NCBI GenBank assembly: GCA_016235665.1
Contig: JACRJI010000016.1
Span: 186,001 to 250,000 of the forward strand
Direction of reading: 5' to 3'
DNA from: a candidate division TA06 bacterium
Lineage (GTDB): Bacteria; Edwardsbacteria; AC1; EtOH8
DNA: 64,000 nucleotides
Shown: in pieces, positions 56,215 through 64,000 of the stretch
Layout of the letters: the number at the start of each line of letters is the position of its first letter
Numbering within the stretch: the stretch's first letter is position 1
Translations under genes and position numbers: made by a program
Notes under the pieces: generated by a model
Seen by the model: only the letters and a program-made list of their open reading frames with translations
What the model was told of the DNA's origin: nothing
The model's database searches: none

Positions 56215-58275
56215 TTATTTGATCACCAGCATTCTCTTGGTGGCCTTGTAACTGCCGGCCTCCAGCCGGTACAAATAGACACCGCTGGGCAGGCTTTGGA
56301 CATTCCAGTTTATGGTGTGGGTGCCTGGGATCTGAACTCCCTGGCCAAAGCTTTTGACCAGCTGTCCGGCAATGTTGTAAACGCTTAATTTTGCCGGCAA
56401 TGGTTGAGATAACTGATAGCGGAATTCCGCCCTGTTTTTAACAGGGTTGGGGTAAACATTGGACAAGGAGAACGGCTTGGCTTTGGACTGGTCATCCGGC
56501 TTACCCATTACCCCGGTCCAGCCGGCGCTGGAGGTCAGTGCGCCCCAGGTTACGGGTGAGATGGAATCGCAGCCATAGGGCCAGGCGCCATATACATCGC
56601 CAGCCGCCATCACCGCAAACCCGATGGTATCCTGTTGGCCGATATTGATGTTTAAATTGGCTATCGGCACGGCAAACTGGGTAATCAAATCGGTCTTATC
56701 CGAAAGGCCTAAAACCCAGCTCGATAAGGCAGCCGGCTCCCAAACCGTAGTGTTGCCGTAAAATTCATAAGGGCTGGCGGTAAGAAAATCTCCCATTAGC
56801 CTGAAATCATAATCCATCAAAACCGCATCCTTGTTATATTTCAGGTCCAGCAATAGGGAATGGTCTTTTATGCCAATGGTCTCGAAGTCCGGGGTTATCA
56901 CCATAACATACAGGGTGTCGCCGTTATACTTGACCCAGAAACTGTCGGCCGCCGGTGCCTTGGCGGACTTGCCGGGGAAGTTGAACGCCGCCTGATAGGC
57001 GTCCATCCATTGAGTTGAATCCAAAGAGCCGTCAAAAACCGGGGCTGTTCCGCAGGGAACATCTATGATGGTCATGGGCGTCTCCCATTTGTTGGACGAG
57101 GTCAACACTCCCCAGGTTACCGGCCTTACGGAATCCATCAGGGTCGGCCAGCGGCCCATCCGGGTATCGCTGTCGGCCAGCAAAGCGAAGCCTATTGAGT
57201 CATTTTCGCCCTTGGTGATACCCAATTTATTTAAGGAAACTGAAAACTGGGTGACAAAACAAACGTTTTTGGAATACTGGCAATCCCATTCCGCGACCTT
57301 ATCCTTTTCCCAAAAACCGCTGCCCCCATTGTATTCTGTAAACTCCACAGTTGTATCGGCCATCAACCGGTAATCATCTCCCAACAGACCGCTGCTGCGG
57401 TCCAGCTTGGTGTCAAAGATCAAGGAATGCCGGGCGATCTCCTGGGGTTCGTAGTCCGGGGTCACCCATATAAAGTAGAGGCTGTCGTTGTTATATTTCA
57501 CGAAAAAAGTATCGATGGCGCTGTATTTGGTCTTGGTTTCCAGCCGGAAGGTGTCCATATAGGCATCCGCCCACTGGGTGGTGTCAAAAGTCCCGGTAAA
57601 TGCCGGAACTGTTCCATAAGGCACGTCTATCACTGGTATTGCGGGCGTTACCCAATTGCCGGATGATGTCAATATTCCCCAGGTGGCAGGTTGAATGGAA
57701 TCCGAGCCATCCGGCCATCTACCCATCCGGGTGTCGCTGTCAGCCAATAAGGCAAAGCCGATGGTATCATTGGCGCCAGGAACAATTCCTATCTTGCTGA
57801 AAGGCACGGCAAATTGAGTCACGAAGCATACATTTTTGGAATACTGACAATCCCATCCGTCAACTTTCTCCTCTTCCCACAGGCTGGTATTCCCGCTGAA
57901 CTCTTTGAATTCAACCACGGTATCTGCCATCAAACGGCGGTCATCTCCCCAAAGAACTGCACCCCCGTCAAAGCTTGTGTCAAAAAGCAAGGAATGCCGG
58001 GCAATCTCCTGCGGTTCGTAATCCGGGGTCACCCAGATCAAATAAAGTGTATCGCTATTATATTTGACAAAGAAAGTATCTATGGCACTGTATTTTGTCT
58101 TGGTTTCCAGCATAAAAGTATCCATGTAAGCATCCTTCCATTGGGTAGTATCGAATGACCCAGAGAAAACTGGACTGGTACCGTACGGAACATCAATGGT
58201 TGGAGCCGCCGCAAAAGATGTTGACAGCACGAACAGCAGGTTTCCCACGATTAAGATTGCCAACTTTAGCTTCAT
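56215..58275 (-). CDS. secreted protein with three CBM9-like repeats and C-terminal sorting domain
   Basis: 686 residues. Signal peptide about 1-22 (LLFVLSTSFAAA). Three related modules (about 25-212, 216-400, 404-590) each begin with an IDVPYGT or IDVPCGT strand, an F-x-G-x-x-D-x-x-Q-W start and a WVTPDY or VITPDF strand: a CBM9-like or DOMON-like beta-sandwich. Modules one and two are almost identical over long stretches; the third is diverged. The end (YPNPVKNRAEFRYQL through GVYLYRLEAG) is the type IX-like sorting domain, so it is likely exported to the cell surface. Overlaps the upstream gene (ATGA). Confidence 0.8.
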   Translation of the reverse strand: MKLKLAILIVGNLLFVLSTSFAAAPTIDVPYGTSPVFSGSFDTTQWKDAYMDTFMLETKTKYSAIDTFFVKYNSDTLYLIWVTPDYEPQEIARHSLLFDTSFDGGAVLWGDDRRLMADTVVEFKEFSGNTSLWEEEKVDGWDCQYSKNVCFVTQFAVPFSKIGIVPGANDTIGFALLADSDTRMGRWPDGSDSIQPATWGILTSSGNWVTPAIPVIDVPYGTVPAFTGTFDTTQWADAYMDTFRLETKTKYSAIDTFFVKYNNDSLYFIWVTPDYEPQEIARHSLIFDTKLDRSSGLLGDDYRLMADTTVEFTEYNGGSGFWEKDKVAEWDCQYSKNVCFVTQFSVSLNKLGITKGENDSIGFALLADSDTRMGRWPTLMDSVRPVTWGVLTSSNKWETPMTIIDVPCGTAPVFDGSLDSTQWMDAYQAAFNFPGKSAKAPAADSFWVKYNGDTLYVMVITPDFETIGIKDHSLLLDLKYNKDAVLMDYDFRLMGDFLTASPYEFYGNTTVWEPAALSSWVLGLSDKTDLITQFAVPIANLNINIGQQDTIGFAVMAAGDVYGAWPYGCDSISPVTWGALTSSAGWTGVMGKPDDQSKAKPFSLSNVYPNPVKNRAEFRYQLSQPLPAKLSVYNIAGQLVKSFGQGVQIPGTHTINWNVQSLPSGVYLYRLEAGSYKATKRMLVIK

Positions 58276-58664
58276 GTTGATTTTCCTCCCTTTTTAATTA
58301 TTATTTTTCTCATCTTGGTGATATTCATTGATGAGAGATTACAGTGCCATAAATTACTGTCTCCAATCAGTTCTGGCGAATGAACCTTCACCACTTTGTT
58401 GCCCCGGTCTAAAATGAACACCTGAAAAGGGATTTCCGCCGGAGAATTGAAGATCAAGCCGCCCGGCTCCAGCATTACACTTTTCACAAATTGAGGCAGA
58501 TAGGCCTTTATTTCACCGGCCCCTTTGGCGGAAACCTGTGTTTTTTTTATTTTCCTCCCTTTTCCGGATATATCCAAACAGCCTCCCCAAAGCCCCTTGA
58601 TGCGGACCACCTCATGATCGTTTTCCGGCAGGGAAGAAATGCGTATGATTTTAATCTGTTTCAT
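58272..58664 (-). CDS. small cytoplasmic protein (130 aa), unknown
   Basis: 130 residues, basic, no signal peptide. The middle (GLIFNSPAEIPFQVFILDRGNKVVKVHSPELIG) is beta-rich. Its TGA overlaps the ATG of the secreted CBM-like protein, so the two are coupled. Placed right after the possible SARP-type site. No family recognised. Confidence 0.6.
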   Translation of the reverse strand: MKQIKIIRISSLPENDHEVVRIKGLWGGCLDISGKGRKIKKTQVSAKGAGEIKAYLPQFVKSVMLEPGGLIFNSPAEIPFQVFILDRGNKVVKVHSPELIGDSNLWHCNLSSMNITKMRKIIIKKGGKST

Positions 58665-58679
58665 ATGTTGGCAATAAAT

Positions 58680-58727
58680 ATAAGAAAAAAGCGCCCTTTG
58701 TTATGCTGATTTTAACAAAGGGCGCTT
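58680..58727 (-). terminator. terminator hairpin after the SARP-like regulator gene
   Basis: AAGCGCCCTTTGTTA (58713-58727 on the minus strand) pairs with TAACAAAGGGCGCTT (58689-58703), followed by TTTTTT. It overlaps the candidate SARP-type promoter described next, so attenuation between the two genes is possible. Confidence 0.8.
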
Positions 58728-58743
58728 ACAAACCGCTTACAAA
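58709..58743 (-). promoter_or_regulatory. candidate SARP-type promoter
   Basis: The 10-bp sequence CGCTTACAAA (plus strand) occurs at 58723-58732 and 58734-58743, an 11-bp period. On the minus strand the second copy ends exactly 8 nt before TAAAAT (58709-58714), a good -10. Eleven-bp-spaced direct repeats with the proximal copy 8 nt from the -10 are the established geometry of SARP operators. Transcription would run into the 130-residue gene and the secreted protein. Confidence 0.5.
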
Positions 58744-58758
58744 AAATGCCGTTACTGC

Positions 58759-60930
58759 CTATCCTTGGCATTCCCGATATAAGGCAACTGTCTCGGGGCT
58801 TATTTCCAGGCCCAGATCTCTGCGCAACGCCGTCCGGCATTGTTGATATTGCTTGGATACCAGGTCTTTCCGCCCTTTCATGGAATAGGACGAAATCAAT
58901 ATGCGATGGGCCTCCTCCAGACAGCGCTCCCGGATAACTGCCATTTCCGAATACTTTATCGCAGCATCCAACTGGCCTTGTTTGAGATGCAACCTGGCAA
59001 GCGAAAGCAATACCTGAAAATATAATTGGCGAAGCTGTTCTCTCGGACCTTCCATCTCCACAAGTTTGATGTCCGGCAGAAAATCGCCCCGGTATAAATC
59101 AACCGCCTGACGGTAATATTCCAGGGCCGCCGGATGCTGGCCGGTGATCTCAGCTTGCTTCCCCTTGCGGACATCCGAAATGAAATGCCTGAAATCCAGG
59201 TCTATATTTTCTATATTTATCCTGTATCTTCCATCCCTGAATTCGATATACTTTGAATGTTTTCCATCCTTGATGCCGGGCTCGAAGAGCCTGCGAAGTT
59301 CAGCCACGGCCACCTGCAAATTTATAGATGCCGTAGCCAGGCTTTTTTTAGGCCAGAGCATCAGGCTCAATACTTCGGACGGCACGAACTGCTCCAAATC
59401 CTCCTGGGAGTTTTCCTCGGCCGATATGTGCTTCGACAATAAAATTCCCAGTACCTGCCTTGAAGCAGCCCTTTTCCATCGTTCAATCAAATGTCCGTCT
59501 ATTGATGCATTGAGAGATCCTAAAGTCGAGACCTCGGGCCGGCGGCAGGATGGTGGCCCTTCTGAAATGGTCTTGATCGGATCGAATTTTTGTGAGAGTT
59601 TATCTATGTATTTTGAGGTGCCTTTTGCTTTTAAATAGGCCGGGATCAGATGCCAAAAGCTGTCGGGATATTGGCCTTGAAAAAAGAAATCGTATTCGTA
59701 TTTTTGGCATATTTTCAGACCTTGTGATAACGTCCGTACAAATGGTTCTGTCTTTTTTTGCAATAGGTAAATATCCGCCAGATTGAGCAAAGCCAGGGAA
59801 TGTTTATACTCCATCCTCATTTCAGCATATACTGCCAATGATTTGACGGCATAATATCTGGATCTGGCATATTCCTTTGAAGCAATACAAACCTTGGAAA
59901 TATTGTACTGGGCTAAGGCCGTGTCAAGCGGTCTCTCTTTTGACGTGGCATCAAGTGCTTCCATGGCATATTTCCTGGAAAGTGCTGGGTTGTTTTGCAT
60001 CCGGTGCAAAGAACTCAAAGCTATCAGACAGGTAAAGTGGTAGGATGCTTCATCGGAACTGTCGGTATTCTCCAGGGCGAATTTAAGCGTCTTTTCTGCC
60101 TCGGCAAACCTTCCCTGGTACATTTGAACTTCTCCCAAGTGAACCCTGGCCGGTCCCAGGGCCATACCGAGGCCGAGTTTTTGAATTTCTGGAATCACCA
60201 TAGTCAAAAGGACCTCGGCCTTTTCCAGTTCAAACATCTCCAGGTAAAGCGAAGAAAGATTCACCGCGGCCAGGCAATAACTGCGGCGGTTGTCGGAATC
60301 CCGGTAAAAGCGCAGGACCTCTTCCTTATCCTTCCGGGCTTTCTCTAAATACCCCAATGTTTTGGTGATAGCTGAAACATTGGCCAATGTGCGAATCTGT
60401 CCTTCCTTGTCGCCGGCCCGTATATAGATTTCCATCACTCGGCCATAGACTTTGGAGGCCTTTTTATAATCCAGCAGTCTCCAATAGCTCCCGGCCATGG
60501 CCGCCAGCAATCCGGCCCGGCCCCGGTAATCGTTTTTGTCGAGGTATTTAAGACCCAAGCCACATGCCTGAATAGCCTTTTGATTCTGCCCCATGTCCTG
60601 ATAAATATAGGAAAGATACCGGTAGGCGGCGGAAAGAGAGGAACTGTCCCGGCTCTTTTTCAAAACGGGAATGGCCGTGGCAAGACATCGCAATGCCGCC
60701 TTGAGCTCTCCGCTTTGGTAATCTGCGTTGGCCGCAAGCAGAATAAGTTTAGGGTGGCTATAGAACTGATCCTTTGGGATCTTATCCAGTATAGTCCTTA
60801 GCTCCGGAAGCCTCCCCGGCTGCAGCAAGTCCCGGCTGTATTCGATCAGCAGGCTGCTGCCAAGAATATAATCCTTGCGGGATAGAGCCTGCTCTATGAG
60901 AACGACCGGATCGGGTTGTTTTTTAGACAT
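58759..60930 (-). CDS. TPR and SARP/BTAD-domain transcription regulator
   Basis: 723 residues from the ATG at 60930; a TTG at 60984 would add 18 residues. About residues 20-450 form a superhelix of TPR repeats (for example GRFAEAEKTLKFALENTDSSDEAS). About 470-560 is an OmpR-type winged helix (VSTLGSLNASIDGHLIERWKRAASRQVLGILLSKH). The C-terminus (about 585-723) is a BTAD domain (PAALEYYRQAVDLYRGDFLP through KQYQQCRTALRRDLGLEISPETVALY). Usual SARPs have the DNA-binding domain first; here it follows the TPR part, as in large AfsR- or MalT-like sensors but without an NTPase. A direct repeat of SARP type lies just after the gene. Confidence 0.85.
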   Translation of the reverse strand: MSKKQPDPVVLIEQALSRKDYILGSSLLIEYSRDLLQPGRLPELRTILDKIPKDQFYSHPKLILLAANADYQSGELKAALRCLATAIPVLKKSRDSSSLSAAYRYLSYIYQDMGQNQKAIQACGLGLKYLDKNDYRGRAGLLAAMAGSYWRLLDYKKASKVYGRVMEIYIRAGDKEGQIRTLANVSAITKTLGYLEKARKDKEEVLRFYRDSDNRRSYCLAAVNLSSLYLEMFELEKAEVLLTMVIPEIQKLGLGMALGPARVHLGEVQMYQGRFAEAEKTLKFALENTDSSDEASYHFTCLIALSSLHRMQNNPALSRKYAMEALDATSKERPLDTALAQYNISKVCIASKEYARSRYYAVKSLAVYAEMRMEYKHSLALLNLADIYLLQKKTEPFVRTLSQGLKICQKYEYDFFFQGQYPDSFWHLIPAYLKAKGTSKYIDKLSQKFDPIKTISEGPPSCRRPEVSTLGSLNASIDGHLIERWKRAASRQVLGILLSKHISAEENSQEDLEQFVPSEVLSLMLWPKKSLATASINLQVAVAELRRLFEPGIKDGKHSKYIEFRDGRYRINIENIDLDFRHFISDVRKGKQAEITGQHPAALEYYRQAVDLYRGDFLPDIKLVEMEGPREQLRQLYFQVLLSLARLHLKQGQLDAAIKYSEMAVIRERCLEEAHRILISSYSMKGRKDLVSKQYQQCRTALRRDLGLEISPETVALYRECQG

Positions 60931-61015: not shown

Positions 61016-62695
61016 TTACAATAGCTTTTTCCCTATCACCTTGGCCAGGTCTTCGATCTTCACCCGCTCCTGCTTCATGGTATCCCGGTCTCTGAGCGTT
61101 ACAGTGTCGTCCTCCAGCGACTGGAAGTCCACGGTCAGGCAGAATGGAGTGCCCACTTCATCCTGGCGGCGGTAGAGCTTGCCGATTCCGGCGGTGTCGT
61201 CGTAGACCGCCCGGAAATAAGGGGTCAGGTCGTTCTTGATCTTTTTGCCCAGCTCCACGATCCGCGGCTCGTTCTTTTTCAGGGGCAGGACGGCCACCTT
61301 GATTGGCGCCAGTCTGGGGTGCAGCCGAAGCACCGCCCTGGTGTGCTCGTCACCCAGCTTGCCGGCGATCAACCTGACCTTCTTCACCAGGTCCAGTTTG
61401 TCGGCTCCAGGCAGGGAGCAGGCGGCATCTATCTGAAGCAGTTTGCCAGGAATATCTTCCTTGGCCGACAGCAAGGCTTTTTCCATGGCCGCCAGCTGCT
61501 GTCCGTTGGGGATCTCGTCTCCCGGGCGCTTGGCCGCCTCAGCTATCCGCTTTTGGATGTTCTTCAACGCTGCATCCATGGCCTCTGATAATGGCTTGAC
61601 TGCGGCCTCATCGGGACGGGAGAGCTGCTCCTCCTCGTAGGCTTCGCACAAGAAGGCCAAAGTGGCCCGGTCTGCTCCGGCCGATGGTTCTATGACATAG
61701 GGGATGTACTTGGCGCCTTTCTTGCCGGTGGCGGGATCGATCCAGGCCTCGTCAAAGTATTCCAGTTTCTCGGTGGAATGCTCGTTCCGGTTGAGTTTCA
61801 AGCGGGCCAGGTCTGTTTCCGGAACGTTGTTGCTGTGGGCCGTCAGGTCGTAATCCTGGCGGTTGGCCACGCCTTCCAGCTCGCTCCAGCCCAAAGATCC
61901 GGGGAAAAGGTATTCCAGGTCCACACAGGCCCTGGCATAGTGGGCCAGCTCCTCTTTGGCCTGGGGGCGCTTCTTTAATCGTTCCGGGCTCAGGCCCAGG
62001 CTTAGATACCAGTTATAGCGGGCCTCCACCCACTCCTGATGCAGCTGGTCGTCGGTTTTCTCGCCGGGCTGCAGGTATTGGGGCGGCTTGCAGAAATACT
62101 CGATCTCCATCTGCTCGAACTCCCGGGTGCGGAAGGTAAAATTCCCGGGCGTGATCTCGTTGCGGAACGATTTTCCGATCTGGGCGATGCCGAAGGGCAG
62201 TTTGCGCCGCATGGATTGTAGGACGTTCAGGAAATTGGTGAAAATGCCCTGGGCGGTCTCGGGGCGGAGATAGGCCAGGCCGGACTCGTCCTGGACCGGG
62301 CCCACGTAGGTCTGGAACATCCCGTTGAAGTTGCGGGGCTCGGTCAGCTCTCCGCCGCACTCGGGACAATTGTCTCCTTTGAGGTGGTCGGCCCGGAAGC
62401 GCTTACGGCATTTCTTGCAGTCCACCAGCGGGTCCACAAAGGTCTTCTCATGGCCGGAATACTGCCAGACCAGGCGGTTCATGATGATGGCCGCGTCCAG
62501 CCCCTCCATATCCTCCCGGTCATAGACCACGCTCTGCCACCAGGCCTTCTTGACGTTGTTCTTCAGCTCCACCCCCAGCGGGCCGTAATCCCAGGTGGAA
62601 CCCAGGCCGCCGTATATCTCGGAGGACTGGAATATGAATCCCCGCCGTTTGCACAGGGATACTATTTTTTCAAAGGCGTTTTCAGGTCTGGCCAC
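61016..62695 (-). CDS. glyS: glycyl-tRNA synthetase (alpha2, single chain)
   Basis: 559 residues. [23 protein letters not shown] (motif 1 region), four cysteines in [24 protein letters not shown] (zinc finger), [41 protein letters not shown] (motif 2) and the C-terminal anticodon domain. The start is a GTG at 62695 with AGGAG 6 nt before; a TTG five codons upstream overlaps that ribosome site. It charges tRNA-Gly. A strong promoter lies upstream. Confidence 0.96.
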
Positions 62696-62738
62696 GTTAA
62701 CTCCTCGCAATAGGTTTTTTAATATTTTCTGATTTTTA

Positions 62739-62826: not shown

Positions 62827-64000
62827 TTACCTGATCACGGTGAACCTTCTGGTGGAAGTGTTCTCCCCGGCGGTCAGCCGGTAAACATAGATTCCCGACG
62901 ATACCTTCCTCCCATTCTGGTCACAGCCGTTCCACTTAACCGTATGGTTTCCGGCTCCCAGCATTCCATTGACCAGGGTCTTTACCCTCTGTCCCAGCAC
63001 GTTGTAGATTTCCAGGCTGGCCGAAGCGCCCTGGGCCAGTCCGAACCGGAACTCGGCCGAGTTCTTGACCGGGTTGGGGCTGGTTGGCATCAGGTAGAAG
63101 CTGTAGCTTACGGCTCCGGGCTGGCCCTCCACTCCGGTGGGCGTGGCCGAAGCTTCGTTGGACCAGGCGCTGAAGGTGTCGGCATGCGATGCCCAGGGAT
63201 AAGTTGAACGAACAACATAGTAGTAAGTACTGTCGTTGACCACGGAATTGTCATCGTATGACAAGTTTGTTGTTCCGTTCAGGAAGGCATATGGCCCACC
63301 GGCCGTGGTTGATCTGAATATCTGGTATTCGCCGATGTTCTTGGCCGAAGCCAGCGCTCCAACGGCAGGTGCTGCCGACAGGGATTTGGACTTGGGCAGC
63401 TTCTGGTCCGTATCCTTCAAAACAGTCAGCTGGTCAAGCTTGCCCAGGTCGGATCCGGCCAGTGCTTTCTTGCTGTAGGTCGAGTAGGACACCACCGCCC
63501 GTGACATCCAGTGTCTCTGGCGCAGATACCAGGTGCCGCCTTGCTTTACCAGGCTCCGGTAGGGCGCCTGATTTTGATCGTCGGTGATCCCATAGGGAAG
63601 ACCTGCGGTCTTGAACTCATATCCCACATGGAAGTCTCCGGCGGGATAGATATTGAGAGAGGAAACATCCACCACGGTCCAGCTGGGATAGGCTACCGGG
63701 TATATTTTGAACGGGGCCACCAGTTCCGTGGCTTCGTCCGGGACTCCTCCGTCATCGGCGTAAATATGGACCGTCAGGGAATCCAACGATGGCTGTTCGT
63801 ACCACATTGAATACAATTGTTCGATCTTGCATCCCTGATGCTCGGGCGTCATTCTGGTGGTAGTAATTGATCCCGCGGCCCAGCTGGAAATATACCAGGG
63901 GTTGCTGTTGTCGTAATATAAAGTAGCTACCGGCGCCGTCCAGGACAAAGGAACCGAACCATCCTGGCCGTCGGTAGCGCCCAACCCGGAAGGAGCATAG
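62827..64000 (-). CDS. secreted protein with fibronectin-like segment and C-terminal sorting domain (partial)
   Basis: Open at the right edge of the window, so the N-terminus is missing; 391 codons are seen. The visible part begins in a fibronectin-III-like strand (YAPSGLGATDGQDGSVPLSWTAP, split across two lines of evidence: YAPSGLGATDG and VPLSWTAP), continues through a WYLRQRHWMS segment and a second Fn3-like region (about 240-285), and ends in an FlgD-like/type IX-like sorting domain (SPNPVKNSAEFRFGL through GIYVYRLTAG). Likely a cell-surface or extracellular enzyme or adhesin; the catalytic part, if any, lies outside the window. Confidence 0.8.
   Translation of the reverse strand, partial: YAPSGLGATDGQDGSVPLSWTAPVATLYYDNSNPWYISSWAAGSITTTRMTPEHQGCKIEQLYSMWYEQPSLDSLTVHIYADDGGVPDEATELVAPFKIYPVAYPSWTVVDVSSLNIYPAGDFHVGYEFKTAGLPYGITDDQNQAPYRSLVKQGGTWYLRQRHWMSRAVVSYSTYSKKALAGSDLGKLDQLTVLKDTDQKLPKSKSLSAAPAVGALASAKNIGEYQIFRSTTAGGPYAFLNGTTNLSYDDNSVVNDSTYYYVVRSTYPWASHADTFSAWSNEASATPTGVEGQPGAVSYSFYLMPTSPNPVKNSAEFRFGLAQGASASLEIYNVLGQRVKTLVNGMLGAGNHTVKWNGCDQNGRKVSSGIYVYRLTAGENTSTRRFTVIR

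Follow-up and report, generated by a model that had tools for sequence, protein, structure and literature searches.

A putative SARP-type operator-promoter behind a TPR-BTAD regulator gene, overlapping the gene's predicted terminator, in a candidate division TA06 bacterium

We asked what purpose is served by a short direct repeat that lies between a regulator gene and a small operon for a predicted exported protein in a candidate division TA06 bacterium. To our knowledge, SARPs have been studied almost only as antibiotic-cluster switches in actinomycetes. The available portions of two papers give the SARP operator rule as heptameric repeats with 4-bp spacers and an 11-bp period, the 3' repeat standing 8 bp from the -10 element (PMC7040171; PMC10936776). 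The original prediction, made on the 64-kb stretch of DNA analysed here (the window), held that a repeat of this layout directly behind a regulator gene forms, together with the genes that follow, a self-contained module of regulator and target. The features concerned are listed below, G000 being the window's genome and G005 and G009 two further genomes of the phylum.

58759 to 60930, minus strand: regulator gene, encoding an N-terminal TPR region, a putative OmpR-type winged helix and a C-terminal BTAD; stop codon at 58759-58761
58734 to 58740, minus strand: putative distal operator heptamer GTAAGCG, inside TTTGTAAGCG (58734-58743); identical in G005, one change in G009 (GTAAGCC)
58723 to 58729, minus strand: putative proximal operator heptamer GTAAGCG, inside TTTGTAAGCG (58723-58732); identical in G005 and G009
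58709 to 58717, minus strand: extended -10 element TGTTAAAAT, with the hexamer TAAAAT at 58714-58709, 8 nt from the proximal heptamer
58702, minus strand: predicted transcription start, an A, placed from the -10 position, 7 nt past the -10 hexamer; A at the equivalent place in G005 and G009
58685 to 58727, minus strand: predicted intrinsic terminator of the regulator transcript, a hairpin at 58727-58689 (15-bp stem, 9-nt loop) with a T-tract at 58690-58685
58272 to 58664, minus strand: U130, encoding a small protein without known family; first gene past the promoter, no clear Shine-Dalgarno sequence
56215 to 58275, minus strand: predicted exported protein of 686 aa, with a signal-like N-terminus, three tandem domains of ~190 aa and a C-terminal type IX-type sorting domain

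The direct repeat and its neighbouring genes

Read along the minus strand, the order is a glyS-like gene (61016-62710, named by eye), the regulator gene, a gap of 94 nt, U130 and the exported-protein gene, whose start shares 4 nt with the end of U130. The gap reads GTAAGCG-n4-GTAAGCG-n8-TAAAAT, or in full TTTGTAAGCG-G-TTTGTAAGCG-CCCTTTGT-TAAAAT, and agrees with the SARP rule in its heptamer repeats, its 11-bp period and its 8-bp distance to the -10 box. The predicted coordinates of the two copies, their period and their distance from TAAAAT were correct, and the same layout is found in three genomes. The functional orientation of the repeat is that of the minus strand, toward the downstream genes at 58664-58272 and 58275-56215. 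The -10 box is an extended one (TGtTAAAAT); by eye, no TTGACA-like -35 element is evident at the position that the repeats occupy. A search of the window against Rfam gave no matches.

Copies of CGCTTACAAA occupy 58723-58732 and 58734-58743, with no third in the window when one mismatch is allowed; the 2.7-Mb genome has a single such pair, which is also the sole exact repeat of at least 9 bp with an 11-bp period in the window, while shuffled windows lead one to expect 0.07 repeats of at least 10 bp at that period. The full layout of an exact heptamer pair with 11-bp period, 8 nt and a -10 box (accepted at 5/6 letters or better) is present once, against a mean of 0.01 in 100 shuffles. A chance test from one window alone is a weak case, and the decisive evidence for the repeat is its conservation, to which we return below.

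Alignment of orthologs, which share a methionine at this place, puts the start of the regulator at ATG 60930 (the mechanical open reading frame begins at TTG 60984) and its length at 723 aa. Pfam matches comprise TPR_12, TPR_MalT and BTAD (PF03704), the last with an E value of 3.3e-21 over the whole domain and present in all three orthologs, and by sequence the protein is a BTAD regulator. It had been described as carrying a SARP-type winged helix plus BTAD; the BTAD part stands, and the winged helix, which together with BTAD would make up the last ~260 residues, is plausible and weakly shown. A Foldseek search with the last 263 residues returned as best matches the AfsR-afsS promoter complex 8hvr (E 2.4e-5) and EmbR 2ff4 (E 2.6e-5), the matches extending across the whole region. 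The BTAD half of the predicted model is good and the winged-helix half has a pLDDT of about 32-44. No winged-helix Pfam family matched the regulator. A profile search gave weak co-linear alignments to EmbR (E 0.023) and AfsR (E 0.09), the EmbR match dropping to E 1.4 once most of BTAD was trimmed off the query, and a structural comparison with VIA-align gave only TPR proteins among the 50 matches listed. No ATPase domain was found in the regulator.

The residues R92 and T88, which contact bases in AfsR according to the part of the source available (PMC10936776), are E and V in the window's regulator by hand alignment, so that specificity would be read differently from AfsR. Canonical SARPs, as far as the available text of one paper goes, carry the SARP domain at the N-terminus (PMC10972967), the mark of small, medium and large SARPs alike. 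The window's regulator has no N-terminal SARP domain; because its SARP domain is C-terminal, the protein would by this reading be SARP-like in action and not a canonical large SARP.

Downstream, the exported protein carries a type IX sorting domain (Por_Secre_tail PF18962, E 2.9e-10; TIGR04183, E 2.5e-13). The earlier description of this protein as CBM-like and glycan-binding gained no support from sequence: none of the seven copies of the ~190-aa domain matched a Pfam family (E up to 5), no PDB sequence matched (E up to 10), and a carbohydrate-binding domain was set aside as a candidate; only the sorting tail is recognised. U130 has no Pfam, NCBIfam or meaningful PDB match; its structure model is beta-rich, of moderate confidence, and found no Foldseek match below E 0.17. 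A clear Shine-Dalgarno sequence is missing from U130 in all three genomes; that of the exported-protein gene which follows is strong. Another protein with a FlgD-Ig/sorting-tail C-terminus lies upstream of the glyS-like gene, at 62827-63999, and sorting-tail cargo is frequent around this part of the window.

Conservation of the repeat and an overlapping terminator

Among ten genomes of the phylum that we examined, three (G000, G005 and G009) have the regulator, the two orthologs outside the window's genome showing 72% and 68% identity. The order regulator, U130, exported protein is common to these three, and they alone gave homologs when 98 genomes were searched with a U130 profile. U130 and the exported protein are only 38-40% identical between G000 and G005 or G009. 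The flanks differ, with a glyS-like gene in G000 and a recF-like gene nearby in G005 and G009 (names by eye). The co-occurrence of regulator, U130 and operator bears out the idea of a self-contained module, and its persistence despite the different flanks of G000 and the other two argues against the reading that another regulator uses the site and stands beside it only by coincidence, which we regard as very unlikely.

The gap itself shows where conservation is concentrated. In the block that spans the repeat and the -10 box (alignment columns 22-60), the three genomes agree at 33 of 39 columns, compared with 4 of 21 before this block and 3 of 18 behind the T-tract. TTTGTTAAAAT is identical at all three loci, even where its pairing partners differ, and the 8-nt spacing between the proximal heptamer and the -10 is kept throughout. 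Allowing up to three mismatches, an operator search of the ten genomes found one site each in G000, G005 and G009 and none in six others; a three-mismatch site in G004 (C30) was taken as chance. The reversed-sequence control gave no sites, and G000 holds no further copies that would point to a wider regulon. The repeat is thus kept in the orthologous regulator-target pairs of G005 and G009, as expected of an operator in the original prediction. At one locus in G002 (C191; L098, 76-4032), the next gene after a glyS-like flank as in the window encodes an exported protein of 712 aa that shares the ~190-aa domain, and the regulator, U130 and the operator are absent; the glyS-like-flanked locus varies between species of one genus.

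The end of the regulator gene is also followed by what looks like an intrinsic terminator, with a stable hairpin and a T-tract on the minus strand, 3' of the gene. The window hairpin has a predicted stability of -23.1 kcal/mol, reached by none of 300 shuffles; a simple terminator scan, limited to loops of 8 nt, did not list it. Hairpins at the equivalent position have -13.3 kcal/mol in G005 (1/300 shuffles as good) and -9.8 kcal/mol in G009 (8/300), the latter being weak. Between the G000 and G005 stems, two pairs are changed on both sides (C-G to G-C and C-G to U-A) with a one-base bulge, in a comparison made by hand in which the register shifts. The hairpin shares the last five bases of the proximal repeat, AAGCG of the heptamer forming the base of the stem, as well as part of the -10 box, which spans the first arm and the loop. 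The predicted start at 58702 is the second base of the 3' arm. Transcripts of the target operon would therefore lack the first arm and be unable to form the hairpin, an escape suggested by a layout common to the three genomes. At its 5' end the target leader consists of the second arm of the terminator and the T-tract (58664-58690 in the window, with equivalents in L035 and L036).

Such an overlap raises the question of whether the conserved block acts in the regulator mRNA, as a terminator or other RNA element at its 3' end, with the direct repeat incidental. The hairpin and T-tract are strong in the window and present in both orthologs, and the hairpin shares half of the proximal repeat. The distal repeat, by contrast, lies outside the hairpin and is about equally conserved, so that the repeat is more than part of a terminator stem, and the invariance of TTTGTTAAAAT where pairing partners differ is not what pairing would demand. 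The objection that the repeat might be only part of the stem accordingly fails. Together with the two points that follow, on a second cassette and on other families, this makes the RNA-element explanation quite unlikely in our judgement.

A second BTAD cassette occurs in the same phylum, at G000 C3 (L071 4955-5577), G008 C56 (L072 5080-5240) and G009 C5 (L070 4370-4540). Its regulator is of ATPase-TPR-BTAD type, about 1,072-1,098 aa long (1,098 aa in G000), and the two regulator groups are 22-29% identical. Like the window's cassette, it consists of a regulator, a terminator, an 11-bp direct repeat, a -10 box, a small protein and an exported sorting-tail protein, in this case a terminator-like hairpin, AAAACTAAGAA twice as a perfect 11-bp repeat, TCGGTGTTA, TATACT, a 129-aa protein and a beta-propeller-like exported protein with a sorting tail. 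Unlike the window's, it uses another repeat, its terminator lies before and not over the operator, and its small and exported proteins are unrelated. A run of 37 consecutive nucleotides, including the perfect repeat and TATACT, is invariant in G000, G008 and G009, each of which has one perfect copy of the operator; G008 keeps it about 350 nt further from the regulator. The spacing is 9 to TATACT or 7 to TATATA, not 8. Here the hairpin is complete before the repeat begins, so that the repeat, which is better conserved than the sequence around it, is unlikely to be an RNA element of the regulator message.

Similar sites behind BTAD genes of other families

PF03704 matches (E up to 1e-8) occur in 56 of 386 genomes. 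The downstream regions of 105 BTAD genes were scanned, 95 outside and 10 inside the window's family; a match in G002 (C51), with only about 270 nt of contig beyond the gene, was excluded for that reason. Removal of one region lacking a stop codon left 104, of which 94 are outside the family. A first look at five BTAD loci in G069, G016, G094 and G039 had given one convincing site, in G039, which was thus known before the scan was designed. Under a looser criterion, an 11-bp site was found in 12 of the 104 regions (7 outside, 5 inside the family), other periods giving 0-2; the antisense strand gave no site at period 11 and never more than 2 at another period. Chosen after that result, our strict criterion required a repeat with 6/7 letters at an 11-bp period, a -10 box of at least 5/6 letters and a gap of 7-9 nt, within 250 nt downstream, and the controls for period, strand and gene were run under the same terms.

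By the strict criterion, 8 of the 94 BTAD genes outside the family are followed by a site, whereas none of the 754 further genes at these loci is (Fisher p 1.7e-8). Two hundred shuffled sets had a mean of 0.12 and a maximum of 2, other periods from 8 to 23 gave 0-1 and the antisense strand none. Tightening the criterion lost G239 and G340 and gained G186, G321 and G368. All eight sites stand behind the 54 C-terminal BTADs and none behind the 40 others. Since G039, G186 and G321 come from one family, the eight represent six families; all the genomes that bear them are outside the window's phylum, and some may be actinobacterial. No such site occurs within 250 nt behind the remaining 86 of 94, and inside the window's family 5 of 10 genes have one in range under the looser criterion, the G008 site, about 415 nt behind its gene, being missed. 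Without the -10 requirement the lead of period 11 is smaller (19 of 64 C-terminal regions, against 13 for the next best period), while a -10-weighted score gives 6 of 54 at period 11 and 0-1 at other periods. Upstream of regulator genes, 1 of 89 had such a site.

The SARP geometry of the original prediction, equal to the published rule, therefore recurs behind unrelated BTAD regulators and not behind control genes, which also speaks against a coincidental neighbour; a period of 11, the sense strand and the -10 distance, specific across families, are difficult to square with an RNA element.

Individual sites vary in sequence. That of G039, TTTAACG-n4-ATTAACG-n8-TATAAT about ten bases behind the stop, is kept with changes in G186 and G321; G157 has GTCAGTC-n4-GTCAGTT and G318 three copies of GTNACCT. 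The BTAD regulator of G210 is followed by a subtilase, and that of G061 by an S-layer-homology protein. The latter locus (L181, 1028-6647) runs from a receiver-BTAD regulator through a terminator-like hairpin, the repeat and a perfect TATAAT to a 1,464-aa protein with SLH, Big_2 and laminin-G domains, and is, to go by its sequence, a form of the cassette built on a response regulator. The regions behind the BTAD stop in L148 (G318), L159 (G368) and L183 (G239) contain three-copy operators with GTTACC or GTAACC cores, partly at 11 + 12 bp spacing, a motif type seen behind BTAD genes of three different families. In L149 (G029) and L150 (G314), of one family, GTGACC-GTGACT lies at 11 bp about 105 nt behind the BTAD stop, below the strict criterion because the repeat is only 5/7. 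Several cores (GTAAG, GTAAC, GTTAC, GTCAG and GTGAC) fit KTNAS, as do the cited SARP sites, a likeness noticed post hoc. In a crude test of export by a hydrophobic N-terminus of the first gene, 8 of 15 genes with a site scored, against 14 of 34 without one; the window family's first genes fail it because there the exported protein is the second gene. The gene downstream of such sites often appears to be exported, the crude test not being decisive.

A candidate cassette and its relation to known SARP systems

We consider it probable that the element is a SARP-type operator-promoter of the operon of U130 and the exported protein, activated by the adjacent TPR-BTAD regulator, and that it serves as the regulator's terminator as well. 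In the proposed mechanism, which follows that of AfsR at afsS, each GTAAGCG heptamer would be occupied by one protomer of the regulator, so that two protomers sit next to each other at a distance of one helical turn. They would stand in for a -35 element and bring RNA polymerase to the extended -10 box. Transcripts of the regulator gene would form the full hairpin and stop, the efficiency of termination being, like the start site, predicted, whereas those initiated at the activated promoter would start inside the second arm and, having no first arm, continue into the operon. This would shield the target operon from read-through and make it dependent on active regulator, the TPR region presumably sensing a signal that controls this activity.

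The adjacent regulator might instead use the repeat as its operator in order to repress, or merely to modulate, for example by an elongation block through the terminator. OmpR-type proteins can repress, and, since the regulator's own transcription unit ends at the operator, bound protein could also act as a roadblock. The placement nevertheless favours activation: an operator at -38 to -21 without a -35 box corresponds to a class of SARP activation in the text available (PMC10936776), and AfsR activates the adjacent afsS, by which adjacency of SARP and target is already known (PMC10972967, in part). We hold repression to be unlikely and activation by the neighbouring regulator to be the better account.

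In the afsS promoter, the available text places TTCAGC at -38 to -33 (PMC10936776); the window's upstream heptamer is at -38 to -32, counted from the presumed start, and TTCAGC and GTAAGC are equal in 4/6 letters. GTAAGCG agrees in 6/7 letters with the PapR2 consensus GTCAGSS given in the accessible part of its source (PMC7040171). The arrangement resembles AfsR-afsS of Streptomyces coelicolor in having a BTAD/SARP-type regulator with TPR, an adjacent target and two 11-bp repeats over the -35 position, 8 bp from the -10. It differs from AfsR in that the SARP domain is C-terminal, behind the TPR, in the missing ATPase domain and in the phylum; and it differs from afsS, which encodes a sigma-like regulator, in that the target is an exported-protein operon with a promoter nested in the regulator's terminator. 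The small SARPs PapR2 and RedD share the heptamer repeats and their 4-bp spacers; unlike the window's regulator they have antibiotic-cluster targets, only about 300 aa and an N-terminal winged helix. EmbR of Mycobacterium (PDB 2ff4) has the same order of putative winged helix and BTAD, with no TPR sensor in front and with different targets. EmbR carries an FHA domain. BTAD regulators adjoining eCIS operons appear in the part of a further paper at hand (PMC8213781).

In the literature searched, a coverage outside which most subscription journals fall, we found no SARP operator outside Actinobacteria and no SARP promoter inside a terminator. As far as that literature goes, C-terminal-SARP regulators of other phyla with an operator directly behind their own gene are new, as are exported proteins as targets and a promoter nested in the regulator's terminator. 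We are inclined to think that these loci belong to a widespread class of self-contained cassettes outside Actinobacteria, each comprising a C-terminal-SARP sensor regulator, its terminator, a SARP box and, directly behind, the gene for an exported or surface protein, one regulator serving one neighbouring promoter; in the window's branch, the promoter is nested in the terminator. If so, the sensor front ends would be TPR, ATPase-TPR or receiver, and the cargo a sorting-tail protein, an S-layer protein or a subtilase. The nested arrangement would be a compact promoter-in-terminator design in which the same bases carry the operator and exclude read-through.

Our results suggest that a SARP operator grammar is common to BTAD regulators of other phyla in which DNA binding is C-terminal, with targets directly behind the regulator. 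If this is true, a mode of regulation familiar from the antibiotic producers of the genus Streptomyces may have a far wider distribution, the operators and targets of many uncharacterised BTAD regulators would be readable straight from genomes, and the control of surface-protein export in uncultured bacteria would become accessible to study.
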